This document shows positions 42,007 through 58,756 of a stretch of 58,832 nt of DNA, piece after piece. The DNA comes from Solirubrobacteraceae bacterium (GTDB taxonomy: Bacteria > Actinomycetota > Thermoleophilia > Solirubrobacterales > Solirubrobacteraceae), in assembly GCA_017882455.1 (NCBI GenBank), contig JADGPL010000020.1:1-58832 (forward strand), given 5' to 3'. A program made the position numbers and the translations under genes. The notes under the pieces are model-generated. The model was given only the letters and a program-made list of their open reading frames with translations, ran no database searches and had not been told where the DNA came from. Position 1 is the stretch's first letter; each line of letters starts with the position of its first letter.

Positions 42007-42053
42007 TGGAGCCAACCGGGATCGAACCGGTGACCTCCTGCTTGCAAAGCAGG
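42007..42053 (-). other. Attachment-site core B: intact 3' half of tRNA-Ala(UGC)
   Basis: On the minus strand this gives a complete anticodon arm (CCTGC-TTTGCAA-GCAGG, anticodon TGC), variable loop, T-arm with perfect stem (ACCGG-TTCGATC-CCGGT) and the acceptor 3' strand GGTTGGCTCCA. The D-arm and 5' acceptor strand are absent to the right, so it is not a functional tRNA. It is the typical attL left when an element inserts in the 3' part of a tRNA gene. The integrase gene starts 137 bp away. Confidence 0.85.
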
Positions 42054-42133
42054 GGCGGTCATGCTGAAGCCAATGGATACGGGGGTCTAGTGTCGGTCAA
42101 AGTGGGGTTATAGCTGGCGAATCTGACCCATGC

Positions 42134-42180
42134 GGTACTCAAAGCGGTACTCGCGGCCACGTGGTACTCACGTGGTACTC
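42134..42180 (+). repeat. Four GGTACTC repeats: candidate integrase arm sites
   Basis: GGTACTC begins at 42134, 42146, 42163 and 42174: two pairs, each spaced 11-12 bp (one helical turn). They lie between core B and the integrase start. The last copy overlaps the -10 hexamer of the integrase gene, so the integrase could repress itself by binding here. Confidence 0.65.
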
Positions 42181-42181
42181 T
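42176..42181 (+). promoter_or_regulatory. -10 hexamer TACTCT of integrase gene
   Basis: TACTCT, 8-nt spacer, ATG at 42190; it shares bases with the fourth GGTACTC repeat. Confidence 0.5.
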
Positions 42182-42189
42182 GTGTGAAA

Positions 42190-43515: not shown

Positions 43516-43572
43516 TCATCGCGAGTGACCCACTTGCACGACCCTCGACCGTGAGGCTTGCCGTTGTCACAG

Positions 43573-44457: not shown

Positions 44458-44580
44458 ATTCCAGCCAATGGTCGCACGGACCGGGGATGGCTCAGCCGAT
44501 CGACGGAGCCGCACCGCCGCGCTTCCGCTAGACGGCCCGGATCGCCGGCTCCAGTGGAGCGAGGACCCATGCCAAAGCCT

Positions 44581-44606
44581 CGTTGGCACTGGTTGGCACT
44601 GGTTGG
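44581..44606 (+). repeat. Short tandem repeat TTGGCACTGG
   Basis: Two full copies of TTGGCACTGG and a partial third (TTGGC) in tandem, upstream of the antitoxin remnant. Possibly a slipped duplication or a protein-binding site. Confidence 0.5.
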
Positions 44607-44647
44607 CGTCATTTGGCCCCATCAGCCGGCAGGGGCAGGCACACGAC

Positions 44648-44846
44648 GTGAGCCACGGAACCGATCTACTGCGGGCGCTGAAAAAAGCCACCTCTGCTGC
44701 TCGCCGAGGAGTCACCCAGCACCGTCCGCGCATGGTTCCTCGGGCTCAACCCACAACTCGATGACCAGTCGCCCGCTCAGAGCATCCGCGAGGGCAACTT
44801 CCGCGACGTGCTCGTCGCAGCCAAGGCGTTCCTCGTCGGGGGATGA
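44648..44846 (+). pseudogene. Frameshifted antitoxin remnant (MbcA/ParS/Xre C-terminal-like)
   Basis: From GTG 44648 one frame reads SHGTDLLRALKK into an A6 run (44681-44686); then another frame continues LLLAEESPSTVRAWFLGLNP, QLDDQSPAQSIREGNFRDVL, VAAKAFLVGG and TGA at 44844-44846. The V-R-x-W-F-x-x-x-N-P-x-L-x-x-x-x-P pattern is the C terminus of MbcA/ParS/Xre antitoxin set-binding proteins. Skipping one A would join the halves. No N-terminal HTH and no RES/NAD-targeting toxin is seen beside it. Confidence 0.5.
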
Positions 44847-44958
44847 GTGTCACCAGAAGCAGTAGATCACGGGCATCCGCTACGTCTTCTGAGCTGAGTT
44901 CTGTCTCGGCGGGCTGCCGAATCCCGCCGGCTGGGACGCGTGGCGTATGTGGCGGGAT

Positions 44959-44985
44959 GGCGGTGATTGGCGGTGTAAGGCGGTG
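44959..44985 (+). repeat. Three GGCGGTG repeats with 10-bp period
   Basis: GGCGGTG at 44959, 44969 and 44979, exactly one helical turn apart, just upstream of the abiE promoter region. They look like cooperative binding sites for a regulator. The rest of 44847-45103 shows no gene. Confidence 0.5.
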
Positions 44986-44990
44986 ATCAG

Positions 44991-45080
44991 TTGCCGCCTA
45001 TTATGTGCTCTAATACATTCTTGACGTGTATAGGCGTGCATCGACCGCTATAACTTGCGAAGGAAATACCGGAATACACG
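44991..45080 (+). promoter_or_regulatory. abiE promoter/operator region
   Basis: TTGCCG (44991-44996), 17 nt, TACATT (45014-45019) is a well-spaced candidate promoter; a TTGACG at 45021 is a possible second -35. A perfect 7-bp inverted repeat CGTGTAT (45025) / ATACACG (45074) spans the leader, and TATAG/CTATA pairs lie between. AbiEi proteins repress their promoters through such inverted repeats. Confidence 0.45.
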
Positions 45081-45103
45081 CAAAGTATGTACTTAGGAGC
45101 ACC

Positions 45104-45892
45104 ATGCGTCAAGATGTTCTCGATCTGCTTGACGATCTCGCTGCGCAGGAGCGCGGAGGGATAACGACTGCAGAGGTGCGCCAGCGCCTGAAGATGTCGG
45201 AGCAGTCGGCGTCCAACCTGATGACCCGGCTCGTCACGGCTGGGTTTCTGGACCGCGTCGCACGTGGGGTCTTCGCTCCAAGGCCGTTGGGGCAGTTGGG
45301 CACCCGCGCGGCATCGCAGGACATCGCGCTGGCCGTCGCAGCGGTGTTCGCGGACGAGCCGCATCGCATTGCGTTTCGCTCGGCCCTCGATCACCACGGG
45401 CTTCTCGTGCATCCGGCGCGAACAGTCCAGATCGCCCTGCCGCGACGCGTCAAACTCGAGCGCATCAGCGGGCGTCGCCTGCAGGCGATCCACGAGTCCT
45501 CGCAAACGATCGCGATCGGGAGCGAGCCGGCCGGACACGGCGCCACCGTCTCATGCATAGAGCGGGCACTGCTCGAGAGCGCAGCGCGCCCGAGTCTTGT
45601 CGGGGGATGGACCGTTCTTGCCGGCGCTCTACGACACGCACGGGTCGACCCGGCGAAGCTCACAGAACTCGCGAGCGAACTCGACGCTGGCCCAGCCATG
45701 CGTCGTATCGGATCGCTCAGCGAAGTGCTTGGTCTCGATCGAATCGCGACAAGCCTCATCCCGCCTGCCGGCGATGCCAGAGTGCTTCCTCTCGACCCAC
45801 AGGCGCCAGCGGAAGATCCGTGGACTGATGAGCGGTGGCGCGTCCGATGGCCAACGTCTCGGCGAGACAGTCGCGAACTCATCTCGACATGA
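45104..45892 (+). CDS. abiEi: AbiEi antitoxin (type IV TA)
   Basis: A 262-residue protein from ATG 45104, with AGGAG 5 nt upstream. An N-terminal winged helix-turn-helix (VLDLLDDLAAQERGGITTAE, VRQRLKMSEQSASNLMTRLV, TAGFLDRVARGVFAPRPLGQ) is followed by the AbiEi C-terminal antitoxin domain (EPHRIAFRSALDHHGLLVHP, VSCIERALLESAARPSLVGG). It represses the operon and counters the toxin without direct complex formation in known cases. Its stop overlaps the next ATG (ATGA). Confidence 0.87.
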   Translation: MRQDVLDLLDDLAAQERGGITTAEVRQRLKMSEQSASNLMTRLVTAGFLDRVARGVFAPRPLGQLGTRAASQDIALAVAAVFADEPHRIAFRSALDHHGLLVHPARTVQIALPRRVKLERISGRRLQAIHESSQTIAIGSEPAGHGATVSCIERALLESAARPSLVGGWTVLAGALRHARVDPAKLTELASELDAGPAMRRIGSLSEVLGLDRIATSLIPPAGDARVLPLDPQAPAEDPWTDERWRVRWPTSRRDSRELIST

Positions 45893-46668
45893 TTCCCCGG
45901 AGCCACTTCACGAAGGTCGCGGACGCCCACGAAGTCGATGCGAAGACGGTGGAGCGCGACTACGTCCTGACGCACGTGGTGACAGCGATCGCCCAACAGG
46001 CCGCAGAGCACGGGTTGGCGTTCAAGGGCGGGACAGCACTGCGTCTCTGCTACTTCGAGGATTACCGGTACTCAGCCGATCTGGACTTCAGCCTCCTCGC
46101 CGCAGGCGACCTCGACATGGCGCTGGGATGTATCGAGTCGGCGCTCGGCGATGCGGCTCACGAGGCCGGCTTTCCCTACCTCGCCATCGCTGACGACGGA
46201 AAGCGGATCGACTACGAGGGGCCGCTGGGACGGCGCCGCGACCTCAAACTCGACATCGCAACCGACGAGCTCGTCGAAGACACAACCGTCCAGGCACTAC
46301 TACCTCGATACGCCGACCAGGCCGACGCGCAAGTCACCGTCTACACGCTCCCAGAGATAGCCGCGGAGAAGCTGCGCTGCGTAATCCAACGTCTGCAAGC
46401 ACGCGATCTCTTCGACCTCAACGAACTGCTCGTCGTCAACCAGCTCCAGCTCGACGACATCTGGCCGGCATTTGAACGCAAGGCACAACACAAACACATC
46501 GACCCCGCGCAGTTCGCCGAACGCTTCGAGAAGCGAATACCGCAATGGCGCTCCAGATGGGACTCAGAGATGCGCGAGCATCTCGGCGGCGAACCCGACC
46601 AGTTCGACACAGTGGAGCGAGCCGTCCGACGAGCGCTGCGCACCAAGCTCGCCGCGGGCGCTCAGTAG
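45889..46668 (+). CDS. abiEii: AbiEii nucleotidyltransferase toxin
   Basis: A 259-residue protein from ATG 45889, overlapping the antitoxin stop. It holds the nucleotidyltransferase motifs: LAFKGGTALRLCYFEDYRYS, then ADLDFSLLAAGDLD (the second carries the D-x-D metal pair), DLKLDIATDELVEDTTVQAL, and ITVYTLPEIAAEKLRCVIQR (Lys motif, ARDLFDLNELL after it). These four motifs define AbiEii. Such toxins transfer nucleotides onto tRNA and cause growth arrest or phage abortive infection. Confidence 0.9.
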   Translation: MIPRSHFTKVADAHEVDAKTVERDYVLTHVVTAIAQQAAEHGLAFKGGTALRLCYFEDYRYSADLDFSLLAAGDLDMALGCIESALGDAAHEAGFPYLAIADDGKRIDYEGPLGRRRDLKLDIATDELVEDTTVQALLPRYADQADAQVTVYTLPEIAAEKLRCVIQRLQARDLFDLNELLVVNQLQLDDIWPAFERKAQHKHIDPAQFAERFEKRIPQWRSRWDSEMREHLGGEPDQFDTVERAVRRALRTKLAAGAQ

Positions 46669-46797
46669 GCCGCGACCCATGCCGCCAGGTCACTGAAGCG
46701 GGGCATATCCGATGCCATCGTACGCTGTGTGCCTGGAGATGGACACGATACCGGAGCCCGCCACCAACTACGCCCTGATCGAGCAGGTGCCTGCGGC

Positions 46798-46896
46798 GAG
46801 CAGACTCTTGAGCGAGTCAACCTCGCATTCGCGCACAAAACCCGAGCTACGGAATCAGTGGGAGCCCGCGGACCCGAATCCGGTCAGGCTCAATGA
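46798..46896 (+). pseudogene. Integrase 3'-end remnant
   Basis: In one frame: [20 protein letters not shown], then [11 protein letters not shown] and TGA. The string LERVNLAFA is identical to the C-terminal end of the integrase at 42190 (DLERVNLAFAPAP). Only about 10 residues are shared, so this is suggestive, not proof. It would mark an older recombination module in the island. Confidence 0.4.
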
Positions 46897-47218
46897 CGAC
46901 AATGCTGCCATCAGCGAGGTCGTCCTCGATCGTCGCGAGGTTGGCCAGCAGTATCTGCGCTTGATGCTCGGGTCGTCGCTGCGTGCCGTGACGAAACAGC
47001 ACGACCGAGGGCGAGCGCTCTCGGCGCAGCGCGAGCAGCGTTCCGAAATCCGTGTCCGCAGACACAATCACGCGTTGCTCCTGCTGGGCGCGAGCGAAGA
47101 TCTCAGCGTCGCTGGCTGCTTGCATTCCGTAGTCACGAACGTGCCTGGCGTCGTGTCCCACGGCCCCAAGTCGTTCGGCGACTACCGGCGAGAGTGCATT
47201 GTCGATCAGAAACCTCAC
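46847..47218 (-). CDS. DUF5615 PIN-like toxin
   Basis: A 123-residue PIN-like protein. It begins [20 protein letters not shown] (first acidic residue Asp 6), with [40 protein letters not shown] (D-x-D-F-G) and [20 protein letters not shown]. This is the DUF5615 pattern: a Mut7-C-like ribonuclease fold. Its ATG overlaps the stop of the DUF433 gene (ATGA), the standard DUF433-DUF5615 pair. It probably cleaves RNA. Confidence 0.87.
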
Positions 47219-47445
47219 GCGGAGGCAGCGAGCGGCAGCTCGCGCTCGCGGACGGCCTCTGCGGCGTAGCGCATCGCCTCGCGAATGTCCTCAGCTTCCA
47301 GATCCGGGTAGGCAGTGAGGATCTCTTGGTCGTCCATGCCCTCGGCGACCATGCCGACCACGGTCGCGACCGGTATCCGCAGGCCGCGGATACATGAAAC
47401 GCCACCCATCTGATCGGGTCCAACAGTGATCCGTGTGAAGGCCAT
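47215..47445 (-). CDS. DUF433 antitoxin
   Basis: A 76-residue protein from ATG 47445. It reads [60 protein letters not shown]: the DUF433 winged-helix signature (G-x-x-C-I-x-G-x-R-I-x-V). It pairs with the downstream DUF5615 gene. TAAGCT lies 8 nt upstream. Confidence 0.88.
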
Positions 47446-47453
47446 CGACTCCC

Positions 47454-47459
47454 AGCTTA
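47454..47459 (-). promoter_or_regulatory. -10 hexamer TAAGCT of DUF433/DUF5615 operon
   Basis: On the minus strand TAAGCT, 8 nt, ATG at 47445; no ribosome-binding sequence. Confidence 0.5.
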
Positions 47460-47516
47460 CCGCGCGAATATGACCCGTCCAAGCGCTGCCAGCCGCGACG
47501 CCATGAGTATGCAGGG

Positions 47517-47741
47517 TCACGCCGCCGCGCTTCCCCCCGACCGACCCCGGACCGCCGCCTCGACCTCATCCCGCAGGAAGATCCAGCGGCGCCCGAGCTT
47601 GCGGCCAGGCAGCAGCCCGCGGCGCGCGTATTCGAGGACCGTCGAGAGGGGAAGGTGCAGCAGCTCGGCGACGCCACGGCCGTCGAGGACGTCATCGCGA
47701 GTTAGCGGCGGGCGGCTGGGGATCGGGGCGCGGGCATTCAT
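47517..47741 (-). CDS. Excisionase-like helix-turn-helix protein
   Basis: A 74-residue protein from ATG 47741. The MerR/Xis-like winged helix is plain: LTRDDVLDGRGVAELLHLPL, STVLEYARRGLLPGRKLGRR and WIFLRDEVEAAVRG (the G-R-x-W motif). Proteins of this type act as recombination directionality factors or repressors in actinobacterial integrative elements. No int gene is adjacent; the likely partner is the integrase at 42190. Confidence 0.78.
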   Translation of the reverse strand: MNARAPIPSRPPLTRDDVLDGRGVAELLHLPLSTVLEYARRGLLPGRKLGRRWIFLRDEVEAAVRGRSGGSAAA

Positions 47742-47847
47742 CGGCTGGTCGCAAAGAGGTGGCTCTACATGGACTGACCACCAGCGCATGAAACCGGCCA
47801 CGAAATTGGAAACCCAGCCACTGAGCGGCACGGGAGCAGCTCAGCTC

Positions 47848-48135
47848 TCAGGACCCGACTTCGACCTCAGCCACGAGGTCTGCCATCGTCAGATCGAGCG
47901 CGTTGGCGATCTCTCGGACTGTCACCCATGACGGTGACGACTGCCCCAGCTCGATCCGAGCGATTGCGCCTGTCGAGAGCCCCGAGCGGAAGGCGACTGC
48001 TTCCTGAGCCAGGCCGCGCTCTTCGCGGAGGCGACGCAACGCAGCGGCAAGCACGGGATCAGGCGGCAATGAGCGTGGCACACCGACCACGATGTCAGCA
48101 CCGGCACGTTGGAGCCATACCCTCAAGAGTACCAT
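47848..48135 (-). CDS. XRE-family regulator
   Basis: A 95-residue protein with an N-terminal extension and a Cro/C1-type helix-turn-helix: LAAALRRLREERGLAQEAVA, FRSGLSTGAIARIELGQSSP, VREIANALDLTMADLVAEVE. The first ~20 residues may be untranslated if a later GTG (VVGVPRSLPPD) is used. It is divergent from the OmpR-like regulator and probably controls one or both promoters in the gap. Confidence 0.78.
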   Translation of the reverse strand: MVLLRVWLQRAGADIVVGVPRSLPPDPVLAAALRRLREERGLAQEAVAFRSGLSTGAIARIELGQSSPSWVTVREIANALDLTMADLVAEVEVGS

Positions 48136-48136
48136 C

Positions 48137-48166
48137 TTGACGTTGCGCTCTTGACGGTTGTATGCT
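48137..48166 (+). promoter_or_regulatory. Sigma-70-type promoter of the OmpR-like gene
   Basis: TTGACG (48137-48142), 18 nt, TATGCT (48161-48166). It lies just upstream of the XRE start, so both divergent genes may be controlled together. Confidence 0.65.
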
Positions 48167-48185
48167 GGGCGCCCAGCAAAGGAGT

Positions 48186-48218
48186 GCCCCCGGCGACAGC
48201 TCTAACTGCCCCGGGGGC
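48186..48218 (+). promoter_or_regulatory. 5'-leader hairpin
   Basis: GCCCCCGG (48186-48193) pairs with CCGGGGGC (48211-48218) across a 17-nt loop, in the ~70-nt leader of the OmpR-like gene. GTGCC/GGCAC can extend it. No T-tract follows, so translational or stability control is more likely than termination. Confidence 0.45.
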
Positions 48219-48244
48219 TTGGCACGGAAAGGACGGACCTTCCC

Positions 48245-49021
48245 ATGCAGCCGGAGGATACCCCGCGAGCTGCGCCCCCGGTCGTAGTGATCTACGGCCC
48301 GGAGAGCGAAAACGAGGTGCTGGCCGACGAGCTGGCGCTTGACGGCTTCGACGTACGACTGGTCAGTGATCCCGCGATGCTGGGCGCGGCCGATCTAGTC
48401 GTCTTTGCTCACACGTCGAAGAGAGGCGCGGGGCTAGACGCTCTACGTGCCCTACGCCTGGGCGAGCTTGCGGGCTCCGGTGTCCGCGCCCTGTGGATGA
48501 GCGCGAGCAGCAATGCCATTGACACGCTGCGCGCGTTTGAGGCCGGAGCGGACGACGCGATCCGCGCGCCGTTCATCTACCCAGAGCTGCTCGCCCGAGT
48601 GCGCGCGCTTCTACGTCGCGACAGCACAACTCCGGGGGTCATCCGCCACGGTGCGCTTGAGATCGACACGGCGACTCGCGCCGCGACCTACAACGGTACG
48701 CCCGTAGAGCTACGCCGCCTGGAGTACATGCTGCTCGTTCAGCTTGCACGCCACCCTCGCCGCGTCTACACCAAGGAGGAACTCCTGATTGGCGTATGGG
48801 GTTACACCACGGGCGCTACCCGGACCGTGGACACGCACGCCAGCCGCGTACGGCGAAAGCTCGCGAGAGCCGGGGCGCAGGGTTGGATCATCTCGACATG
48901 GGGTGTGGGCTACAGCCTCGCCCCAGCCACGAACGCCGAGACGCCGACACTGCATCGCCCGTCCGAGGACGCACCTGGCGACGCAGGCGACCAGCGCCGC
49001 AGCACAGACCTCCGGCCGTAG
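48245..49021 (+). CDS. OmpR-like winged-helix regulator with atypical receiver domain
   Basis: A 258-residue protein, with AAAGGA upstream of the ATG. The receiver-like N terminus (VVVIYGPESENEVLADELAL) lacks the acidic pair and the phosphoacceptor: where Asp is expected the sequence reads LVVFAHTSKRGAG. The C-terminal DNA-binding domain is standard (VELRRLEYMLLVQLARHPRR, VYTKEELLIGVWGYTTGATR, TVDTHASRVRRKLARAGAQG, then VGYSL). It is probably not phosphorylated and could sense by ligand or dimer state. It directly precedes the relaxase, a common arrangement in actinobacterial elements. Confidence 0.82.
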   Translation: MQPEDTPRAAPPVVVIYGPESENEVLADELALDGFDVRLVSDPAMLGAADLVVFAHTSKRGAGLDALRALRLGELAGSGVRALWMSASSNAIDTLRAFEAGADDAIRAPFIYPELLARVRALLRRDSTTPGVIRHGALEIDTATRAATYNGTPVELRRLEYMLLVQLARHPRRVYTKEELLIGVWGYTTGATRTVDTHASRVRRKLARAGAQGWIISTWGVGYSLAPATNAETPTLHRPSEDAPGDAGDQRRSTDLRP

Positions 49022-49213
49022 ACAAGACGGCGCCCTCAACTCGGTCCGGCCGATCAGCGCACCGCCCGCTCCCGCCTGCCGGCGGTCGCTACCTGCACCG
49101 TCGCTCCGCTCCACAACTGCCTGACAGACCAGATACACGGGTGTGTCATCGGTGTGCGATCGGTGCCTAATTCGTTGGCCGCTCCGCCTTGGTCGTGGTC
49201 TGTAACCCATGTG

Positions 49214-51859
49214 ATGACCGCTGCCAGCATCGGCGCCGCCAAGGGCGGGGGCTATGCCCGCTACCTGGAGGGCAAGACCGTGACCCCCGAGCGCGGGGAC
49301 TACTACCTGACGCCCGACGGCGAGATGGCACAGGCCCCCGGCCGCTGGCTCGCCAACGACGACACGCTGGCCGCATTGGGCATCCAGCCGGGCGAGCCTG
49401 TGCAGGGCGCTGACTTCATCGCGTTGATGGAGGGACGACACCCAGGCACCGGGCGATGGCTGCGCCCCGAGGGCGCAGGCGGCGGCAGAGGCGGCGGGAT
49501 CGACGTGACGTTCAGCGCCCCCAAGTCCGTATCGACCGTCTGGGCGCTGGGAGATCCGTGGCAGCGAAAGCAGATCGAGGCCGCGCACGCCCGTGCGGTC
49601 GAGCAGACGATCCTCTACCTACGCGAGCAGGTCCCCGTCGTCCGCCGACGCTACGACGGGCAGGTCGTAGAAGAGAACGCCAAGGACGTGATCGCCGCGG
49701 AGTACCGGCACACCACCGCCAGAGGCGTAGCCGGCGGCCGGGCGCCCGACCCGCAGCTGCACAGCCACGTGGTCATCACCGGCGCTGTCCGCGAGGACGA
49801 CCGGGTCGTCGCGATCTCCTCCCGGCCGATCTTCCGAAGCGCCCGCGAGCTTGGCGCGTTCTACCGCTCCCAGCTCGCCCACGAGCTCGCCAAAGACGGC
49901 TACCAGATCAAGTACGGCACAGGCAAGGACGGCCGGTACTTCGAGCTGGCCGGCGTACCCCAAGGGCTGCTCGATGACTTCTCCGGCCGCAGCCGCGAGG
50001 TCGCCCGCGCCGCGGAGCGATTCCGTGCCCGCTACGGACGAGCACCGGAGCGCGGGGAGCTACGCGGCCTCGCGCTCGAGAACCGCAGAGCCAAGCAACC
50101 CACCACCAGAGCCGACCTACAACAAGCATGGGCCGACACCGGCCACCGCCACGGCTTCGCACACGACGAGGCGCTACAGCTCCTCGGCGGCCCCGAGCGC
50201 ACCGGCCGCAGCGGCAAGGTTGAGGACCGCATCGAGGCTCAGCTGACCCAGCAGCGCGCGGTGTTCGACTCGCGCGAGCTGCGCACCGTCGCGCTCGAGC
50301 AAACAGCCGGAGAGATGCTCCCCGACACAGCGCTCGGAATCGCCCGCGAGATGGTCCGCGACCGACGCATCCTCACCCTCGAGGACGGACGCATGACCAC
50401 GCTCGCCATCCGCGCACAGGAGCAAGCGATCGAGCGACGTGCCACCGCGCTCTCACAGCCCGTGGGCAGAGACGCCGGCGACGCTTCGCGTGAGAGCGCG
50501 GTGCGTGAAGTCGCTGAGCGGATCGCCGCGCCGCTCAGTGCCGAGCAGCACGCCGCGCTCCAGGCGATCACCGGCCCCGAGCGACTCGCCGTCCTCATCG
50601 GCCCAGCAGGCACAGGCAAGGGCATCGTCATCGACGCCGCAGCAAGAGCAGAGGAACGCGCGGGCCGCACGGTGCTGGGTATCGCCGTATCCGGCAGCAC
50701 CGCAGAGCGACTCGGCGCCGAGACCCCATCCCTCAACGGGCGAACACTCACCCTGGACTCGCTCGTCGCGCGTGCCCGCACGGGGAGCATCCACGTCGAC
50801 CAGGCCACCACGATCTTCCTCGACGAGGCCGGGATGGCCGACCACCAGCGCCTCGACGCGCTGACCGCGCTCGTGGAGCGCTCCGGGGCGAAGCTCATCG
50901 CCGTAGGCGATGGCAAGCAGCTCCCCTCGATTGGTCCCGGAGGCATGTTCGACCGGCTCTCCCAACACGCCACCACAGCCGAGCTGACGGACATCTACCG
51001 AACCAAAGACCCCGATGAGCAGCGCGCCTGGCAAGCCCTCCGCGCCGGCGAACCAGAGCGAGCGATGGCGCACTACGTCCTGCGCAACCAGCTCCACTTC
51101 CAAAACACCCGCGACATGGCGGGCGAGGCCGCCGTGCAACGCTGGCACGAACTCACCCAACGGCACGGGGCACGCGAGGTCGCGCTGATCGCGGACGCGT
51201 CAAACCAGGAGATCGACCGCCTCAACGCCCGCGCGCAACACCTCCGCAGCGAACACGGAGAACTCGGCCACCACACGCTCCAGCACCCCGACCGCCACTA
51301 CAGCCTCCACCAAGGCGACCTCATCGCCTTCACCAAACAGCACCGGCCCCCAGACCAGCCGCGAGTCGAGAACGGCAGCCGCGGCGAAATCACGGCGATC
51401 ACACCGCGCGGCATCACGATCGCCCTCGACGGATCAGACCGCCATATCAACCTCCACCAGGAGCACCTCGGCACGATCCGCCTCGGCTACGCCCAACACG
51501 TCTACCGCCAGCAAGGCGCCACCGTCGAGCGCTCCGTCGTCCTCACCGGCGGCTGGCAAACCAGCAAGGAGAGCGCCTACGTCGAGGCCACACGCGCCCG
51601 CCACGGCACCGACTGGTACCTCGCACGCGACCAACTCGGCGAGCAAGGACAAGACCCCAACCGCATCAGACGACTCGCCGAACACATGCGCAACAGCCGC
51701 GCGCAGACCCCATCCCTTGCGATCCGCGAGCGCGCGGACACAGGCTGGGAACCCAGCCGCGACCCCCTACGGCTCCGCTCCCGACTCTCACCAACGCACT
51801 GGCTCACCCGTACACCCAGCCGTGATACACCCGACCGCAGTGTGGGCCGCGGACGCTGA
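49214..51859 (+). CDS. MobF-family relaxase-helicase (TraA-like)
   Basis: An 881-residue protein from ATG 49214; GTG 49154 would add 20 unlike residues. The TrwC relaxase domain shows Tyr residues near the N terminus (GGGYARYLEG, GDYYL), FSAPKSVSTVWALGDPW, EYRHTTAR, and the metal-binding pair in DPQLHSHVVI (His 183, His 185). The helicase part has Walker A LIGPAGTGKG (about 463-469), Walker B TTIFLDEAGM, and VGDGKQLPSIGPGGMF, ending with LRLGYAQHVYRQQGATVE (UvrD-C-like). It nicks oriT and unwinds DNA for transfer. No TraG/FtsK-like ATPase is present in the window. Confidence 0.9.
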   Translation: MTAASIGAAKGGGYARYLEGKTVTPERGDYYLTPDGEMAQAPGRWLANDDTLAALGIQPGEPVQGADFIALMEGRHPGTGRWLRPEGAGGGRGGGIDVTFSAPKSVSTVWALGDPWQRKQIEAAHARAVEQTILYLREQVPVVRRRYDGQVVEENAKDVIAAEYRHTTARGVAGGRAPDPQLHSHVVITGAVREDDRVVAISSRPIFRSARELGAFYRSQLAHELAKDGYQIKYGTGKDGRYFELAGVPQGLLDDFSGRSREVARAAERFRARYGRAPERGELRGLALENRRAKQPTTRADLQQAWADTGHRHGFAHDEALQLLGGPERTGRSGKVEDRIEAQLTQQRAVFDSRELRTVALEQTAGEMLPDTALGIAREMVRDRRILTLEDGRMTTLAIRAQEQAIERRATALSQPVGRDAGDASRESAVREVAERIAAPLSAEQHAALQAITGPERLAVLIGPAGTGKGIVIDAAARAEERAGRTVLGIAVSGSTAERLGAETPSLNGRTLTLDSLVARARTGSIHVDQATTIFLDEAGMADHQRLDALTALVERSGAKLIAVGDGKQLPSIGPGGMFDRLSQHATTAELTDIYRTKDPDEQRAWQALRAGEPERAMAHYVLRNQLHFQNTRDMAGEAAVQRWHELTQRHGAREVALIADASNQEIDRLNARAQHLRSEHGELGHHTLQHPDRHYSLHQGDLIAFTKQHRPPDQPRVENGSRGEITAITPRGITIALDGSDRHINLHQEHLGTIRLGYAQHVYRQQGATVERSVVLTGGWQTSKESAYVEATRARHGTDWYLARDQLGEQGQDPNRIRRLAEHMRNSRAQTPSLAIRERADTGWEPSRDPLRLRSRLSPTHWLTRTPSRDTPDRSVGRGR

Positions 51860-51963
51860 GCGACCGCTGATGTGAACTCCGATCGACCCGGATCGCAACC
51901 ACTCCATTGTGTATTCAGCCTCCCTCGCGCTTGCGCATGGTTGGGACGATGACATTCGTGCTG

Positions 51964-52344
51964 TCAGCGGGCCGCCACTGAGACGTCGCGACCAACGAGA
52001 TGGGCGAACGTCGTCAAGTCGGAGGGCGCGATACCGAAAGGTCGCGGGAAGCTCAAGGATCTGCCGGTCGCAGGGAACAGGGACTTCAGCGCCATGGCCG
52101 ACTCGAAGCGGGAACGGACTCTCAGGCCAGGGGAATCGACTGGACTGAGCATGTACATGACGAGGTGGCGGACTGCGAGCACGGCACCGAGCGCGGGAAT
52201 GGCGCGCCCCGTGTCGTCTTTCAGAGTGACCGCAAATGAACGGAACCATGCTCCGCCATCACGCACTCGCTGCCCCAACCAGACGCGCATTCCTGGAAGT
52301 GGCTGACGCCTCGCCAAACCTTCAGTAAAGGTCTGTTGTCCCAA
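51964..52344 (-). CDS. Possible small protein in the relaxase downstream gap
   Basis: A 126-residue frame with reasonably balanced composition: GGAWFRSFAVTLKDDTGRAI, then a hydrophobic stretch (IPALGAVLAVRHLVMYML) and SPVDSPGLRVRSRFESAMAL. No family recognised, no ribosome-binding site, and the 51860-52490 gap has other similar-length frames, so this may be noncoding. If oriT lies near the relaxase, it could be here; I see no diagnostic nic sequence. Confidence 0.3.
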   Translation of the reverse strand: MGQQTFTEGLARRQPLPGMRVWLGQRVRDGGAWFRSFAVTLKDDTGRAIPALGAVLAVRHLVMYMLSPVDSPGLRVRSRFESAMALKSLFPATGRSLSFPRPFGIAPSDLTTFAHLVGRDVSVAAR

Positions 52345-52490
52345 ACTCGCCCTGGCGCTCTGGAGGCTCCTTCGTGCAGAACGCGCCTACACTATTCGGT
52401 CGAGCAGTTCGTGCTCGCAGGACGCACCGAGCAGGCCGGCGAGGCAGCAACCTTATGCCGGGGCGCCGCCCTGGCGGCGACGGCTGGCGA

Positions 52491-53657
52491 CTACAGGCCG
52501 AGAATCGAGCGACGCACGACGGCGCCTAGAGCGATTAGGGCACCAGAGAGCAGCGCGGCGAGGATGATCGTAAGAAGTTGAAGGTGCGCGGTCTCGTTCG
52601 GCTGCACCAAGGCTACCGTTGCATGGCAGTCGGGGTCGTGCGTGGCGTCGCGCTCGGGGGCGCGGCTACACGTCCATTGGCGGCTCGGGCCGGCGCCGTT
52701 CGGCGCGGGATTGCTTGCCTGGAGATCCAGTTCGCTCGCTATCGCGTTGACTTCCGTCTCGGCTTCGCCGGGCCCGAGCGACCGCGCCGACGCGTTGTCG
52801 ATGTTGTCCGCTGTCAGCGGTTCCTTCGGGACCGAGTGACCGACGAGCGCGGGTAGCCGCAGAAAGCAACTTTGGTAGCCGCGTGCCGAAATCCATGGCG
52901 CGAGAAACACGAATCGCATAAGGCCATTCTGAAAGTCCGTGTTGGGCGTGATGTGCTTTAGCTCGGCGTTCGGAATCATGCCGGTCACCACCGTGTCTTC
53001 TTGGCTCTGTCGTCCTTGGTATTCGGCGGAGGCTGAGACCTGCACGTCGGGCGCGATCATTTCGACATGGAGCTGCGAGATTCGACCCTTCACGGCGAGT
53101 CCGAAGAGGCCGGGAACGTTGGGGTGAGGCACGGTGAAGGTGCGATGACCTGGCGAGTAGTAGTTGGTGTGAAGCACGAGGACTTCGTGTAGGCGGGTGG
53201 CTCGCACGGCTCTTAGCCAGCGCGGATCGAGCTGGACGGTGATTCGGACCGCGACGGGGTTGGAGCAACCCGCGGTTTCGACTTCGACCCGCGTAGCTTC
53301 GCTTGACTCGAGTTCGGGCTCACGATTCGGGATGTGGTTCAAGGCTGCGTCGAATGTGGCGACGTCGTAATGCATGAGTGTTGAACGTCCCGAGACCGCA
53401 AAAGCGACGCTGAGATGTTCACCTTCACCTTCGGGTGGCGCATGGACGGAGAGGAGGAAGGTTCCTGCGATGACTGCCCCGAACACAGCCGCGATCAGGA
53501 GAGCAACGTATACCACCTGACGCCAGCCGGGAGGCGACGCAGGCGCAGCCAACCGCGTTGTAGACGGAGACAATGGGCGCGTGTGGTGTCGTGCGCGGCG
53601 GCGCAGCGCCACGCCCAGGCCAGCGAGACCCAAGAAGACGAAGAGTTGCTTTCGCAT
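52491..53657 (-). CDS. Membrane-anchored protein of unknown function
   Basis: A 388-residue protein from ATG 53657. Segments: a short hydrophobic N terminus (LFVFLGLAGLGVAL), a membrane helix at about 49-70 (VVYVALLIAAVFGAVIAGTF), a ~290-residue probably extracytoplasmic domain (HLSVAFAVSGRSTLMHYDVA, VAVRITVQLDPRWLRAVRAT, SQLHVEMIAPDVQVSASAEY, TPNTDFQNGLMRFVFLAPWI), and a C-terminal helix (LTIILAALLSGALIALGAVV). Four cysteines in the outer part may pair. Its charge and lower GC differ from the chromosomal genes. No family recognised. Confidence 0.65.
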   Translation of the reverse strand: MRKQLFVFLGLAGLGVALRRRARHHTRPLSPSTTRLAAPASPPGWRQVVYVALLIAAVFGAVIAGTFLLSVHAPPEGEGEHLSVAFAVSGRSTLMHYDVATFDAALNHIPNREPELESSEATRVEVETAGCSNPVAVRITVQLDPRWLRAVRATRLHEVLVLHTNYYSPGHRTFTVPHPNVPGLFGLAVKGRISQLHVEMIAPDVQVSASAEYQGRQSQEDTVVTGMIPNAELKHITPNTDFQNGLMRFVFLAPWISARGYQSCFLRLPALVGHSVPKEPLTADNIDNASARSLGPGEAETEVNAIASELDLQASNPAPNGAGPSRQWTCSRAPERDATHDPDCHATVALVQPNETAHLQLLTIILAALLSGALIALGAVVRRSILGL

Positions 53658-53694
53658 CCCGCATATCCTGGCTGAACCGGCGCGCTAGATGCCG

Positions 53695-53862
53695 CCTCGT
53701 CGCGGCGGGTGGTGTTTCCGTGAGGCCGAAGAAGACGGGGAGAATCTGCCGGACTCGCTCTCGGTTGAGGCCGAAGCGTTAGCCGAGTTCGCTCAGGGCC
53801 AGGCCCTCCACGATGCGGAGCCTGAATATCTCTCGGTTGCGGTCGTTGGGGGCGCGGCCGTG
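53695..53862 (-). pseudogene. Sigma-70 region 4-like HTH remnant with internal stop
   Basis: On the minus strand one frame reads HGRAPNDRNREIFRLRIVEG, LALSELG, then TAA, then RFGLNRERVRQILPVFFGLT. The signature N-R-E-R-V-R-Q-I-L is the region 4.2 helix-turn-helix of sigma factors and related small regulators. The internal TAA makes it a broken gene. It abuts the next hypothetical gene. Confidence 0.6.
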
Positions 53863-53864
53863 TT

Positions 53865-54113
53865 TTAGCGATAGCCGTAGCAATTCAGCGCGCAGACGAT
53901 CTCAAACAGCTCGACACCGCTGCTGAACTCGGGGCGCTGAACAAGGTCGCTGGCGGTCCCGAGCTGGTTGACCGCGCTGGTCTCGGCCGTGGTCAGCCCT
54001 GCCAGCGTGTCTTTGCTCAGGCCGAGTTCGTTGACTTTCATCGGCGGGCGGGGCGTGAACTTCGAGCCACGCGGGGGCAGCTCGATATCCAAGCCGAGCA
54101 CGTTGACGATCAC
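53865..54113 (-). CDS. Hypothetical protein
   Basis: An 82-residue frame: IVNVLGLDIELPPRGSKFTP, then VNELGLSKDTLAGLTTAETS and SGVELFEIVCALNCYGYR. Balanced composition but no family recognised. It directly precedes the HTH remnant on the same strand and may once have been part of that unit. Confidence 0.35.
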   Translation of the reverse strand: MIVNVLGLDIELPPRGSKFTPRPPMKVNELGLSKDTLAGLTTAETSAVNQLGTASDLVQRPEFSSGVELFEIVCALNCYGYR

Positions 54114-54181
54114 AGCACGGCCCGGAACTCTCCCGTCTCGTCGCGGCCAAGCTCAAGCCGGCTCACAGCGCACACTCCGCC

Positions 54182-54210
54182 TTGACATAGGGATATAAGG
54201 GCTATAGGCT
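54182..54210 (+). promoter_or_regulatory. Sigma-70-type promoter TTGACA-17-TAGGCT
   Basis: TTGACA (54182-54187), 17 nt, TAGGCT (54205-54210), in an AT-richer stretch with several CTATA/TATAG repeats. It would give a ~30-nt leader containing AAAGGAG. Confidence 0.65.
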
Positions 54211-54247
54211 TCTACCACTATACCAAGCTAGGTACAAAGGAGTCGTT

Positions 54248-54556
54248 ATGGCCCGTCGGGTAGACCGTTTCGAGAAGGAGGTCCAAGAAGCCCTACGCCG
54301 CTACCCGTGGGAGCAGTGGTGCGACGGCTCGATTTGGGAGATTCGCCAAGGCGAGGACTACGACGTGCCCACCGAGAACATGCGCGTCAACCTCCATGAG
54401 CGCGCTAAGCAGCGCGTGATGAAGGTCAGAACAGAGAAGTTCAAAGACAAACCCAGCGAGGGCCTGCGCTTTCAGTTCATCGCACTTGAACTGGTGTCGC
54501 CCATTCGAGGGCTGAAGCCATTGGGCCACGGCAACGTGACTCGCCGGCGGTTGTAG
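54248..54556 (+). CDS. Small conserved hypothetical protein
   Basis: A 102-residue basic protein with an excellent ribosome-binding site (AAAGGAG) and promoter. It reads VDRFEKEVQEALRRYPWEQW, CDGSIWEIRQGEDYDVPTEN, MRVNLHERAKQRVMKVRTEK and EGLRFQFI. The W-E-I-x-x-G-E-D-Y block looks conserved, but the function is unknown. Its strong expression signals set it apart from its neighbours. Confidence 0.72.
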   Translation: MARRVDRFEKEVQEALRRYPWEQWCDGSIWEIRQGEDYDVPTENMRVNLHERAKQRVMKVRTEKFKDKPSEGLRFQFIALELVSPIRGLKPLGHGNVTRRRL

Positions 54557-54611
54557 TCTCGGTCGCAGCATCCTCGCTTGTGCCAACTGGGCGGCGCTGG
54601 TGCGACGGCGC

Positions 54612-54617
54612 TACGAT
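54612..54617 (+). promoter_or_regulatory. -10 hexamer TACGAT
   Basis: TACGAT, 6 nt, ATG at 54624; no ribosome-binding site. Confidence 0.45.
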
Positions 54618-54623
54618 CCAGAT

Positions 54624-54923
54624 ATGGATGCACGTGAGCACCTAGGGAGGCTGAAGGGTCGTGACATTCCAACGATCACGCACAAGAAGCCCAACCGCGT
54701 GCTGTCGGTTCACGGCTCTGACGTCGAGGTCATGCGTGAGCAGCACGGAACTGTGCCCGTGGCGCACGTTCAGCAGGCGCTCGACAAGCTCTACAGCGAC
54801 GGTGTGCTGCGCATCAACAAGGCGACATTGGGGCACTCCAACACGGCGTTTGTCGGTGCGGTACTTGCTCAATTGCCTGAGGTTGAAGTCGTCAGGAGCC
54901 CACGGTCGGTGCGTCTCGCCTAG
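54624..54923 (+). CDS. Small protein, possibly winged-helix
   Basis: A 99-residue protein. It reads DAREHLGRLKGRDIPTITHK, PNRVLSVHGSDVEVMREQHG and VPVAHVQQALDKLYSDGVLR, then INKATLGHSNTAFVGAVLAQ. The helix-helix-hairpin order of the middle part fits a winged helix. No family name is assigned. Its 3' end overlaps the minus-strand membrane protein gene by 32 bp. Confidence 0.6.
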   Translation: MDAREHLGRLKGRDIPTITHKKPNRVLSVHGSDVEVMREQHGTVPVAHVQQALDKLYSDGVLRINKATLGHSNTAFVGAVLAQLPEVEVVRSPRSVRLA

Positions 54924-55464
54924 CCAGGCGATTGAGGCAGCGGCGTATCGACCGCGTTCCCCTCGGCTTTGAATAGGCTGCGATCGCCCTCGCTGCTTCG
55001 CCGGTCGCGCTCAGCGCTATCGCCCGGTCGGTCTCGTGTGTCGGGCCGGCAGGCATCGAGAAAAAGCTGTTGAGGGTTTGCATCGTTAGCCAAAGCGACG
55101 ACCAAGTTCCCTCATCCACGGTGCTCAGGGCGTCACGGTACTCGCGCCAAGTCGAGAGGACGTCCTGGTAACGCATTTTCGCTGTCTCGCTAATCGTTTT
55201 AGTCCGCTCGGATTGGAGTACGATGACCAGGCCAGCGAGTTCTGTGTGGAAGAGACGTGCAGCGACGCGGCGTCGCTGGTTCCGGCCGATCCACGCGAGG
55301 ACGAACTGGCCCGCGATTGTGAGAGCGCCGCCGATGACGACTCCAATGAGTGGGAGGACTTCGGAGAGCTGCGACGCGATCAGCACGAGCAAAACGTACC
55401 GATCTGCTGGACCGCCGCACTTCAGGCTGATCTGGTCAGGCGCCCGGAAGGGACCGCGTGTCAT
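54892..55464 (-). CDS. Membrane protein of unknown function
   Basis: A 190-residue protein with a hydrophobic N-terminal half (YVLLVLIASQLSEVLPLIGV, VIGGALTIAGQFVLAWIG: one or two helices) and a cytoplasmic basic/helical half (VAARLFHTELAGLVIVLQSE, RYQDVLSTWREYRDALSTVD). A later GTG near VLLVLIASQ may be the true start. The layout recalls small two-helix membrane proteins with coiled C termini that turn up in defence cargo, but I cannot assign a family. Confidence 0.55.
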   Translation of the reverse strand: MTRGPFRAPDQISLKCGGPADRYVLLVLIASQLSEVLPLIGVVIGGALTIAGQFVLAWIGRNQRRRVAARLFHTELAGLVIVLQSERTKTISETAKMRYQDVLSTWREYRDALSTVDEGTWSSLWLTMQTLNSFFSMPAGPTHETDRAIALSATGEAARAIAAYSKPRGTRSIRRCLNRLARRDAPTVGS

Positions 55465-55591
55465 GCGGTAGTCCGATCACGATGTTCCTTTACGTACTCG
55501 TGTGGCTCTTGCGCGCGACCCAGCCGGCGGGGTGTCGTCCGGTCCGTCCGGGATTCTGGACATGGGCCAGAATCTAAGACAGGAGGCTTTC

Positions 55592-55969
55592 GTGTCCCGC
55601 TATCCGCAACTGCCCGTCCGCCACGCTGTGAGAAGTGACGAGGGGGTGTCCTTCATCGACTACTTGAATCGACTCGCCGACGAGAGGGGTGTTCTCCGCC
55701 AGCGCCAGCTCGCGTTCATCAACGAATGGGACTGCTTGGTCGATGATCTTGGCCGCCGTCCGACGCCAGCCGACTACGCCGAGAGATGGAAGATGCCTCG
55801 GTCCACGGTGTATTCGCTCTTGGCTGAGTTCCGGCATCTGTTCCCAGGACAGACCGACCCCACCGACCTATGCCGAGAGATCTGGGAGGGCGTGGCTGCA
55901 CAGCAGCACGAAGCACCGTTCGGGATTGTCGATTGGGAGCAGGTCCGGGTGGTGCCGCTCGCCGCCTGA
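55592..55969 (+). CDS. Small HTH-like protein
   Basis: A 125-residue protein from GTG 55592, chosen because CAGGAGG lies 6-7 nt upstream. It reads SRYPQLPVRHAVRSDEGVSF, YLNRLADERGVLRQRQLAFI, then a helix-turn-helix-like stretch PTPADYAERWKMPRSTVYSL, LAEFRHLFPGQTDPTDLCRE and FGIVDWEQVRVVPLAA. Probably a DNA-binding protein that could control the gene after it. Confidence 0.62.
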   Translation: MSRYPQLPVRHAVRSDEGVSFIDYLNRLADERGVLRQRQLAFINEWDCLVDDLGRRPTPADYAERWKMPRSTVYSLLAEFRHLFPGQTDPTDLCREIWEGVAAQQHEAPFGIVDWEQVRVVPLAA

Positions 55970-56058
55970 ACCAGGTCAGCAGTTGGGCAGCGCCGCCCGT
56001 CAATGCATGTCCACTTCTTTGCCTGGTGATCGTAGCCGTATCGTGGCATCCTATAGTT

Positions 56059-57021
56059 GTGTCGGATCCCCAGATTTCGTCGCTTCTGTCGGGCCAGATC
56101 ATTCGCAGCGGCCAACACGGGCAGTATTTGATCACGCGGGAAACAGTCGAAGATATGCACCGGCAGCTCCAGGAACGTCCCGTGCCCGTCAACATCGAAC
56201 ATGATCCGACCGTACCGCCCGTCGGCCGTATCACCGACAGTCGGCTGGTGGAACTCGAGGACGGAGAGTTGGCCCTAGAGACCGACACCGAGATATTTGA
56301 CGGAACGGTGCCTGCGGCGCTCTACGCTCATTCGGATCTAGCCTCGGCTGTACAGGCGCTTGAGCACCTCCCCGCTGAACCTGGTCCCGTAGATGTGATT
56401 GTCGATGACCGCTCGTACTCCAAAGAGGATCTTGAGGCTCTACGCGTCATCATCGCCGAGGTCGGGGGCGCCAATGCGCGCGACGGTGCATTGCGATTTT
56501 CGCAACTTCCGGACGCGCTGCTGGTGTTCTCGCTGGGCTCCACGGGTACCGCCATGTTTTGGTTCAGCAAGGGCTTCTTTACCAAGCTCGGTGAACGTAC
56601 AGCCGAGGAACTGGGGGAGGAGGTCGGAAAAGATCTCGCTGGCGCTTACCGAGCGCTGAAGACAAAGGTCCGCGAAGTTGTTGCGCGTAGAAACCCGCCT
56701 GACCAGCCACCGCTCACAATGTTTACGCTCACGATCGGCCGTGCAGATGGGGGTACAGTGGAAATTGAAGGAAGCACGCGTGCAGGCGACGCTGGCCTTG
56801 ATGATTTCCTTGATGCAGGCGAGGAGCTGCTGGCGATCGCTCGCGTGTTCGTGGACAGAGCGCCTGAGCCGGCTACGCTCGCCAAGATGCATTTCGCGCG
56901 CGAAGACGGAACTTGGCACCTTCGCTACGGGCTCGACGATCAGGCTCGGCCTGTCATGATCGTCGCACTGTCGGATGAGGAATACGCGAGGGCGAAGGCT
57001 GTGGCTCAGCAGGAGCACTGA
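56059..57021 (+). CDS. Protein of unknown function
   Basis: A 320-residue protein from GTG 56059. Residues 1-110 (LSGQIIRSGQHGQYLITRET, VPVNIEHDPTVPPVGRITDS, ELEDGELALETDTEIFDGTV) resemble the first part of phage prohead-protease-like folds (P-V-x-I-x-H-D-P-T-x-P-x-G), though this is weak. The middle has FSLGSTGTAMFWFSKGFFTK, then EELGEEVGKDLAGAYRALKT, a charged helix that could pack on a membrane. The C terminus (LLAIARVFVDRAPEPATLAK, DGTWHLRYGLDDQARPVMIV) looks like a separate domain. No family is assigned. Confidence 0.6.
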   Translation: MSDPQISSLLSGQIIRSGQHGQYLITRETVEDMHRQLQERPVPVNIEHDPTVPPVGRITDSRLVELEDGELALETDTEIFDGTVPAALYAHSDLASAVQALEHLPAEPGPVDVIVDDRSYSKEDLEALRVIIAEVGGANARDGALRFSQLPDALLVFSLGSTGTAMFWFSKGFFTKLGERTAEELGEEVGKDLAGAYRALKTKVREVVARRNPPDQPPLTMFTLTIGRADGGTVEIEGSTRAGDAGLDDFLDAGEELLAIARVFVDRAPEPATLAKMHFAREDGTWHLRYGLDDQARPVMIVALSDEEYARAKAVAQQEH

Positions 57022-57208
57022 GCACTCAGCGACCGCCTTTCGCAGCCATCAGCTGTGGCTGATGGCTGCGTCCGAAACCCGCGGCGGCGGGACCACTTGG
57101 CGTCATCAAGCGCCATCCACGCCCGCCAGGGACGAGCGCAGAGCGGTCGCAGAACACAGCGGTGCCTCCTGAGCTGGGGATACATCGCCCGAGAATCCTG
57201 CTACCCAG

Positions 57209-58384
57209 TCAGGTCCATCCAACGTCAGCGAGAACAAGTCCCTCGCCTAGGTCTCTACCGATCGCATTGAGCCACTCCTCAACTGAGTCGATCTCGGATA
57301 CATCGCGATCGACGACGCTATGGCCATCGAGGGTGTCGACGACCAGCACACGGTAAGCCGGTGGATCGCCCTGGTAATTGCGCTGCACCATTGGGTCGTC
57401 GGCGATGCGACGTCGCCGTCCATCCTTGCCGGTCCAGGTTAGGCCCGCCCATGACTCCAACCGAAGCCGTCTCTGGTGAGCGACTAGCTGCTGAAACAGT
57501 GGCTGGTCGTCGCTCAGCGTAATCGCACCTTCTTGCGTGATCGGCGGCGAGGGCGCGGCGGGGCTCGCGGGCTCCCACCGGAAGTCGTAAAGACGGTTTC
57601 CCGAAGCATGGCTTCCCAAATGTCGCCAATGATCCAATAGCTCCCGCCCTCGGAAATGGCGAATCGCACAGAGCCTGTCAGCGCCTTGAAAGTAACCGTA
57701 TGCGGTCCAGCTATCGAGCTGCTCCGCAATGTACTCCTCTTGATGCTCGCCGTGGAAGAGTCGTCGCACCGTTCGTCGCCCTCGCCGCACGTACGTGTAG
57801 TGGTGTACCAGATGCCAAGCCTCACCCAATTCTTGACCTGAAAACCTGTCGGTCCACGCTAGGCCCAGAAGATCAGGGAATCCTTGGCGCAGACCATCAG
57901 CCCACAAGAGCATTGCCCGGTCGAAGTCGTCCACGACAACTGACTGACCGAATCTACTCACTGGAATGTCGGCCGGAGGCCGGGTCAGCGTAGCTGGGAT
58001 GCTCGTTACAATCGGTGCCCGTTTGCGGACGACTGCGATTTCCGCCCCGTACCGTGTGGCTCGTGCCGCCTCGGCACTCTCCTCACGCCGCTGGAGGCAT
58101 TCGGCACATAGAAATGCCCCGATGTCTGTGCCGTGCAGGCCGCAGAGGGATTGCTTGCAGTCCTGACAAATGCCGATTGACTGCCTTCCACACGCACAGA
58201 GTTCCGACGCGCCGGGAGTGCTGATTTGGAAGCGATGGCGGCATGGTCGCGATGCATGGAGCCACGTCGGATTGCCGGCCATACCTGGCGGCATCGAGGC
58301 GTCTATCTGACTCGCGCACTCGAATAGGCCAGGGGTGATCTGGCGGATTTGGGCACCGCCGCATTGCGGGCACGAAAGTGCCAT
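57209..58384 (-). CDS. Zinc-finger protein of unknown function
   Basis: A 391-residue protein from ATG 58384, with TACTAT 9 nt upstream. The N-terminal part is a zinc ribbon (LSCPQCGGAQIRQITPGLFE, C at FECAS), then a second metal site ELCACGRQSIGICQDCKQSL, CGLHGTDIGAFLCAECLQRR. The rest has many aromatic residues: VVVDDFDRAMLLWADGLRQG, ELGEAWHLVHHYTYVRRGRR, AYGYFQGADRLCAIRHFRGR, LYDFRWEPASPAAPSPPITQ, LRLESWAGLTWTGKDGRRRR. No enzyme is recognised. It is convergent with the 56059 gene. Confidence 0.65.
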   Translation of the reverse strand: MALSCPQCGGAQIRQITPGLFECASQIDASMPPGMAGNPTWLHASRPCRHRFQISTPGASELCACGRQSIGICQDCKQSLCGLHGTDIGAFLCAECLQRREESAEAARATRYGAEIAVVRKRAPIVTSIPATLTRPPADIPVSRFGQSVVVDDFDRAMLLWADGLRQGFPDLLGLAWTDRFSGQELGEAWHLVHHYTYVRRGRRTVRRLFHGEHQEEYIAEQLDSWTAYGYFQGADRLCAIRHFRGRELLDHWRHLGSHASGNRLYDFRWEPASPAAPSPPITQEGAITLSDDQPLFQQLVAHQRRLRLESWAGLTWTGKDGRRRRIADDPMVQRNYQGDPPAYRVLVVDTLDGHSVVDRDVSEIDSVEEWLNAIGRDLGEGLVLADVGWT

Positions 58385-58581
58385 CGGGCGCTGATAGTAC
58401 TGGAGTCACGAGGTGTGTATGAAGCAAGGTGGTGATCCTCTATCCAGGGCCACGACGCCGACGGCGCATAGCCCCGCGCGCCGGGAATCGAGCTACGGCG
58501 ATGCGGCCGCACTCTGCTCAGGCGTCGAGCGAAATGCCCTCCCGATGCCGGAGCCAGGCGGTTCGCGTTGACTTCGGTTGG

Positions 58582-58625
58582 CTCCATCCAACCTAGGATC
58601 GAACCACCAACCTCCTGCCTGCAAA
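58582..58625 (-). other. Attachment-site core C: degenerate tRNA-Ala 3' fragment
   Basis: Same orientation as cores A and B; shares CCAACC, GGATCGAACC, ACCTCCTGC and TGCAAA in order with a 1-nt insertion. The T-stem no longer pairs and no 5' half of a tRNA follows. GGTTGG-CTCCAT-CCAACC overlaps its edge as a small hairpin. It is likely an old or drifted att site. Confidence 0.6.
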
Positions 58626-58665
58626 CTGCCAAATCTCCAATCCCCCGCAAAATAAGGCCTGGTGT

Positions 58666-58715
58666 GGTACTCACCTGCGGTACTCTCGGCCAAAAACGAG
58701 TACCAAGCGAGTACC
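58666..58715. repeat. GGTACTC x2 and GAGTACC x2: arm-like site cluster
   Basis: GGTACTC at 58666 and 58679, and its reverse complement GAGTACC at 58698 and 58709. Same heptamer as beside core B, here as two direct pairs facing each other, 40 bp right of core C. Confidence 0.65.
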
Positions 58716-58756
58716 ACTGGTCTACCAAAACTAGTAACCGTTCAGTCCTCTGGTGT

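Follow-up and report, generated by a model that had tools for sequence, protein, structure and literature searches.

Unrecognised genes at a contig end in Thermoleophilia probably form the right arm of a putative mobilizable element at tRNA-Ala

Integrative and mobilizable elements (IMEs) typically encode an integrase and a relaxase, target the 3' ends of tRNA genes, undergo accretion and carry variable cargo including toxin-antitoxin (TA) genes (PMC5704250), and defence genes are expected among the cargo of such mobile-element slots (PMC8791490). The present analysis concerns positions 52491-58384 of a window of 58,832 bases, which is the whole of contig C33 from a 3.3-Mb draft genome that its matching relatives assign to the class Thermoleophilia. 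A first-pass annotation had listed seven open reading frames in this stretch, all of which we find there, and had proposed that together they form one new defence or conflict module. In our reading, to which we assign a probability of roughly three in four, the stretch represents the right arm of a putative IME of about 16.6 kb (42007-58584), which is bounded by repeats of the tRNA-Ala 3' end and is one of several elements arrayed at tRNA-Ala. This would account for the layout, the drop in GC content, the comparison with a sister element in a congeneric genome of another species (G006), and the scatter of homologues. The stretch is thus best described as accessory cargo of a mobile island and is mostly not supported as one defence system, since there is no shared operon, no linkage and no family match.

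An IME is expected to encode its own site-specific integrase as well as a relaxase or another mobilisation function, and both are recognisable in the window, the former by the Phage_integrase match and the latter by a TrwC/MobF protein with an AAA_30 domain. The features that define the putative element outside the seven genes are as follows.

37229-37268, plus strand: tRNA-Ala 3'-end repeat, an outer att-like scar (direct repeat matching the 3' end of tRNA-Ala(TGC))
42007-42046, plus strand: tRNA-Ala 3'-end repeat just ahead of the integrase, left end of the element (95% identical to 37229-37268)
42190-43515, plus strand: tyrosine integrase (Phage_integrase, E 5.6e-34)
45104-46668, plus strand: AbiEi/AbiEii pair, cargo slot 1 (AbiEi_1; AbiEii, E 1.6e-34)
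46847-47445, minus strand: DUF5615 PIN-like/DUF433 pair (Pfam)
47517-47741, minus strand: xis-like HTH_17 protein (E 3.2e-10; 85% identity in G006)
49214-51859, plus strand: MobF/TrwC relaxase-helicase (TrwC, E 9e-65; AAA_30; 72-85% identity in G006)
58584-58623, plus strand: degenerate tRNA-Ala 3'-end repeat, right end of the element (65% repeat; comparison with G006 locus L021)

Inside the left repeat, the order is tyrosine integrase, DprA-family gene, AbiEi/AbiEii, DUF5615/DUF433, HTH_17 xis-like gene, XRE regulator, Trans_reg_C gene and TrwC/MobF relaxase. Profile searches found no type IV secretion system (T4SS) family among the genes called between 42190 and 58384, so that no mating-pore apparatus is present within the element. 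The GC content is 71% across the first 34 kb of the window and 60-67% in the right-hand part that holds the island. The direct repeats begin at 37229, 42007 and 58584, and the second is also 94% identical over 49 nt to the tRNA-Ala of G006. The earlier description of the seven genes as accessory cargo of a mobile island with relaxase and AbiE, and without a known transfer gene, is borne out by these data.

The same element occurs in G006, where it is split over two contigs, and the comparison of the two provides the internal structure of the right arm. The aligned DNA blocks correspond to positions 49209-51861 (77% identity), 54591-55583 (92%) and 55573-57151 (93%) of the window, followed by 58555-58717, and a further alignment covers the xis-like gene. 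The similarity hence ends at 51861, restarts at 54591 and skips 57152-58554. The block matching 58555-58717, which contains the degenerate att site, directly precedes an intact tRNA-Ala(TGC) in G006, the only genome where an intact tRNA adjoins the equivalent right end, after a matching copy of the degenerate repeat. The two G006 contigs are separated by an insertion sequence just upstream of the gene for the helix-turn-helix (HTH) protein, both junctions showing its terminal repeats, AGGTGTCT, together with a duplicated stretch of 7 bp (TCTAAGA). The place of AbiE is variable, as G006 has a Schlafen AlbA_2 gene (SLFN_AlbA_2) between xis and its left arm. Judged by this comparison, positions 52491-58384 comprise three parts, namely a slot in which the genes have been replaced, a core conserved in both elements and a block that is optional. 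Their contents are as follows.

51862-54590, no strand: cargo slot 2 (G006 matches end at 51861 and restart at 54591)
52491-53657, minus strand: mem388, an orphan membrane protein of 388 aa (hydropathy: helices near residues 51-69 and 363-381)
53690-53868, minus strand: sigma-70 region 4 gene remnant with an in-frame stop (Sigma70_r4, 36.5 bits, cut-off 24.1, stop read as X)
54248-54556, plus strand: 102-aa protein of a phage-borne small-protein family, YPWDEWxDGxxWxL..GxDF (homologues, alignment)
54624-54923, plus strand: p99, a small, possibly winged-helix protein of about 99 aa (91% identity in G006)
54892-55464, minus strand: mem190, 190 aa, with an N-terminal membrane segment (92% in G006)
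55592-55969, plus strand: HTH protein, GTG start behind AGGAGG (98% in G006)
56059-57021, plus strand: p320, a two-part protein of about 320 aa (about 95% in G006)
57152-58567, no strand: optional block of about 1.4 kb, absent from G006, bounded by the imperfect repeats GCGGTCGCA and GCGGTTCGCG
57209-58384, minus strand: zinc-finger protein of 391 aa; multi-zinc domain (CxxC...C...C) at the N-terminus, C-terminal part unique (N-domain homologues)

The core (54591-57151) consists of four genes at 92-93% DNA identity between the window and G006. Within the aligned coding part of all four there are no indels, and the substitutions at codon positions 1/2/3 amount to 3/3/14 in p99, 8/7/25 in mem190, 1/2/16 in the HTH gene and 7/9/35 in p320, which corresponds to an excess at the third position with binomial P values from 9e-4 to 3e-7. 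The lack of indels and the concentration of substitutions at codon position 3 show that the four frames are real genes under purifying selection. One could also regard the whole region as a graveyard of decayed genes without current function, in view of the sigma-region-4 remnant with its stop, the degenerate right att site and the 388-aa orphan frame without homologues. The selected, indel-free core already contradicts this, however, and the 102-aa and zinc-finger genes have intact frames and conserved homologues, so that we consider decay of the region as a whole highly improbable.

Conservation and HTH content, and these features only, suggest that the core may serve the regulation and upkeep of the element. 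The strands are mixed, with p99 on the plus strand, mem190 on the minus strand (the tails of the two genes overlap) and the HTH and p320 genes on the plus strand, and therefore the core is not a single operon, the HTH gene and p320 being the sole pair that could share a transcript. This arrangement bears on a different proposal, namely that p99, mem190, the HTH protein and p320, with or without the zinc-finger gene, are cargo and constitute a so far uncharacterised module for antiphage defence or conflict, in which DNA-binding regulators control the membrane protein and a two-domain effector. In its favour, the four genes are kept together in two elements under purifying selection, they travel with AbiE in the window and with the Schlafen AlbA_2 gene in its stead in the sister, and the p320 homologue of genome G057 (60% identity) lies near SbcCD-like genes, an IrrE-type peptidase and a resolvase, in a locus without the other core genes. 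Yet only the HTH gene and p320 could be co-transcribed, homologues are unlinked outside the two sisters and no PADLOC model matches, and we thus regard such a module as quite unlikely.

Searches with each core protein gave few relatives. A homologue of p99 was found in G006 only, and a JetA2 match (E 0.006 across 48 residues) was rejected as too weak. Outside G006, mem190 has one partial relative (G125, 37%), and distant relatives of the HTH protein occur in five genomes, either as single proteins or fused to longer ones. The start of p320 had been likened to a prohead protease, a resemblance without profile support, as neither Pfam nor PHROGs gave a match up to E 1, and the predicted structure (pLDDT 44) is too poor for a meaningful fold search.

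Across the seven proteins as a set, Pfam, NCBIfam, PADLOC and PHROGs gave no hit that passed a curated cut-off or had an E value under 0.006, which agrees with their initial description as unrecognised. No PADLOC signature protein was among them, the best matches (E 0.006 and 0.07) covering short stretches. When phages, plasmids, IMG/VR and GTDB contigs were searched for homologues of p320, the zinc-finger protein, mem388, the HTH protein, p99 and the 102-aa protein, the results were mostly empty, and linkage of the gene set was not found at unrelated loci; the genes are linked in the sister G006 only and occur elsewhere as single genes. The first-pass annotation had named scattered, unlinked housekeeping homologues as evidence that would speak against a module. 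The homologues are indeed single outside the two sisters, but several of them, located in mobile or accessory regions, do not qualify as housekeeping genes. Together with the three-part split in G006, the alternating strands and the lack of a PADLOC model, this argues against one defence or conflict module, whereas individual genes, above all the zinc-finger gene, stay open as defence candidates, since defence cargo is expected in such slots and the AbiE pair of this element fits that expectation.

In the optional block, the N-domain of the zinc-finger protein (the first ~110 residues) is shared with a protein of genome G103 (47%, E 4e-55) and with a Miltoncostaea oceani replicon protein (40%), the C-terminal parts of which differ. 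This would match a pattern of a sensor with swappable domains and raises another possibility, namely that the block (57152-58567) on its own encodes a single-gene defence or stress effector, composed of a shared N-terminal multi-zinc sensing domain and a variable C-terminal effector. Within 10 kb of the G103 locus lie an Eco57I-type methylase, an AIPR/AbiU gene and a SIR2-STAND gene, and a partial N-domain in G050 is located near an Mrr-type gene, whereas defence genes are lacking at the Miltoncostaea locus, where the neighbours include ParB and VWA genes. The full N-domain is known from three loci only, the window copy included, which places the association beyond statistical testing. A defence neighbourhood for two of the three relatives (G103 and G050, but not Miltoncostaea) is suggestive and is not a statistical test, and the N-domain is the sole part of the seven genes with an antiphage link elsewhere, albeit a weak one. 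We consider a stand-alone effector possible but unlikely.

In the replaced slot (51862-54590), G006 has about 5 kb of other unknown genes. One of these, at L020:1593-2168 on the plus strand, encodes a 191-aa protein in which a PD-(D/E)xK nuclease-like motif (EVDLVG...LASVKS) can be seen by eye; it has no Pfam match. For mem388, no convincing homologue was found among 151 relatives, 299 genomes of the class, plasmids and IMG/VR. Matches within the class at E 1e-3 to 1e-2 covered short stretches only and were rejected. The protein had been described as having three helices, in place of which hydropathy gives two strong ones, one close to either end. The sigma-70 region 4 remnant was missing from the earlier gene list. 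Just upstream of it, an open frame (53865-54113, minus strand) resembles by eye the C-terminal domain of the RNA polymerase alpha subunit and has no Pfam match; the frame and the remnant are possibly a decayed fusion.

The 102-aa protein belongs to a family with 28 IMG/VR loci and with homologues in seven related genomes, some copies being located near recombinases or tmRNA. Its membership is evident from the W..DG..W and GxDF core, in which W24, D26, G27 and W30 are invariant in an alignment of 24 sequences. A domain of this type also forms the C-terminus of a LAGLIDADG endonuclease (L028:9596-10474, minus strand) in the ssb-rpsR ribosomal-protein region of G025, and since the domain is fused to such an enzyme, a nucleic-acid-binding role may be inferred for the 102-aa protein. 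Structure prediction, which had been suggested for each protein, gave a confident beta-alpha-beta-beta core in this case (pLDDT above 92) and the unusable model of p320. No significant fold match was obtained for the former, however, as the best PDB match had E 0.24. With VIA, the best Z of 5.4 was a tie of the RepE winged helix, SpoVS and a designed IF3-like protein, a fold rated as common, so none is claimed; the best viral match (E 5e-3) is an unnamed 78-aa protein. The protein had further been called strongly expressed, and the gene does have a good ribosome-binding site, but a promoter scan gave no consensus promoter.

Within the IME reading, the integrase/xis pair would cut the element out at its flanking tRNA repeats, nicking of the excised form would fall to the MobF relaxase, and the element would then leave the cell via the T4SS of a co-resident integrative and conjugative element (ICE). 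The core genes may regulate and maintain the element, p99 and the HTH protein being putative DNA-binding regulators, and the slots would hold exchangeable genes that benefit the host or protect the element. Among these, the 102-aa protein would be a small protein of nucleic-acid-binding type that phages also carry, and the zinc-finger protein would be the one plausible defence effector.

A candidate helper is present in the same genome. Its intact tRNA-Ala(TGC) is located on contig C31 (129505-129576), near conjugation genes for TcpE, AAA_10 (VirB4-type), TrbL, CHAP and Replic_Relax and near another integrase, and the T4SS-bearing ICE on C31 could hence mobilise the element of the window. An isolated 5' tRNA half lies 8.4 kb from this tRNA, with the T4SS-bearing ICE downstream; several elements are piled up at this one tRNA. 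A junction of C31 with the right end of the window was considered and dropped, as there is no supporting sequence.

Several points weigh against the IME reading. The right repeat is only 65% identical, and Rfam and tRNA scans of the whole window were empty, leaving it without an intact tRNA; both facts cast doubt on where the element ends on the right, and decay of the element is conceivable. No oriT was identified. The two G006 contigs yielded no counterpart of the window's integrase or dprA gene, so that a shared backbone is evident solely between the xis-like gene and the right end. Lastly, the service of the core to the element is deduced from one sister, and the four genes could instead be conserved cargo.

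Three observations concern the edges of the element. Beside the degenerate att site, GTACTC/GAGTAC motifs are repeated at 58666-58717 and at L021:1699-1753 and are conserved in both species; they are possibly integrase arm sites. At the right contig end, 58720-58832 looks like the C-terminal portion of a gene on the minus strand, ending in RPMFAYMTDLLAAHARGDPPPSLA and a stop, and is probably outside the element edge. Between the two left tRNA-Ala 3'-end repeats, 37229-42006 looks like a second small element or remnant with a TIG-domain protein and a repeat-containing secreted protein, the contents being flanked by an inverted repeat of 76 nt plus 40 nt (37578-37694 / 41769-41883).

Overall, the analysis outlines how a tRNA-Ala mobilizable element may be built in a little-studied lineage, where the right-arm core is common to the sister elements, cargo is exchanged at two or three slots, and an ICE of the same genome may act as helper. 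It also cautions that a string of unknown genes on an island need not be one system, and it provides, with the zinc-finger gene and p320, clear targets for testing new defence genes. A more far-reaching and decidedly tentative idea, with a small chance of being correct, is that the zinc-finger gene by itself encodes a new antiphage sensor-effector whose C-terminal domains are exchangeable, or else that a family of Thermoleophilia mobilizable elements has fixed the four-gene core as a new conflict module.

Among described systems, the closest are the IMEs with tyrosine integrases at tRNA 3' ends, such as BcenGI2 at tRNA-Ala and IME_Sag2603_tRNAlys (PMC5704250), with which the window element shares integrase, relaxase, lack of a T4SS, tRNA-end repeats, tandem accretion and variable cargo with TA genes. 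It differs from both by its MobF relaxase in the Thermoleophilia, the right-arm core of four unknown genes and the degenerate right repeat, and its mobility is putative. Exchangeable slots, with AbiE here and the Schlafen-type gene in the sister, recall the defence cargo of mobile elements (PMC8791490), but the genes at 52.5-58.4 kb match no defence model. The phage YPWDEWxDGxxWxL small proteins and the C-terminal domain of the LAGLIDADG homing endonuclease have the same domain as the 102-aa protein, which differs in standing alone on a mobilizable element and in its short extra tail. The zinc-finger N-domain, finally, has a homologue in the SIR2-STAND/AbiU/Eco57I neighbourhood of Actinobacteria isolate AC_59 (VAYN01000012.1), a metagenome bin of the same order, whereas the window copy has another C-terminal part and sits at the edge of a mobilizable element, in a block without other defence genes.

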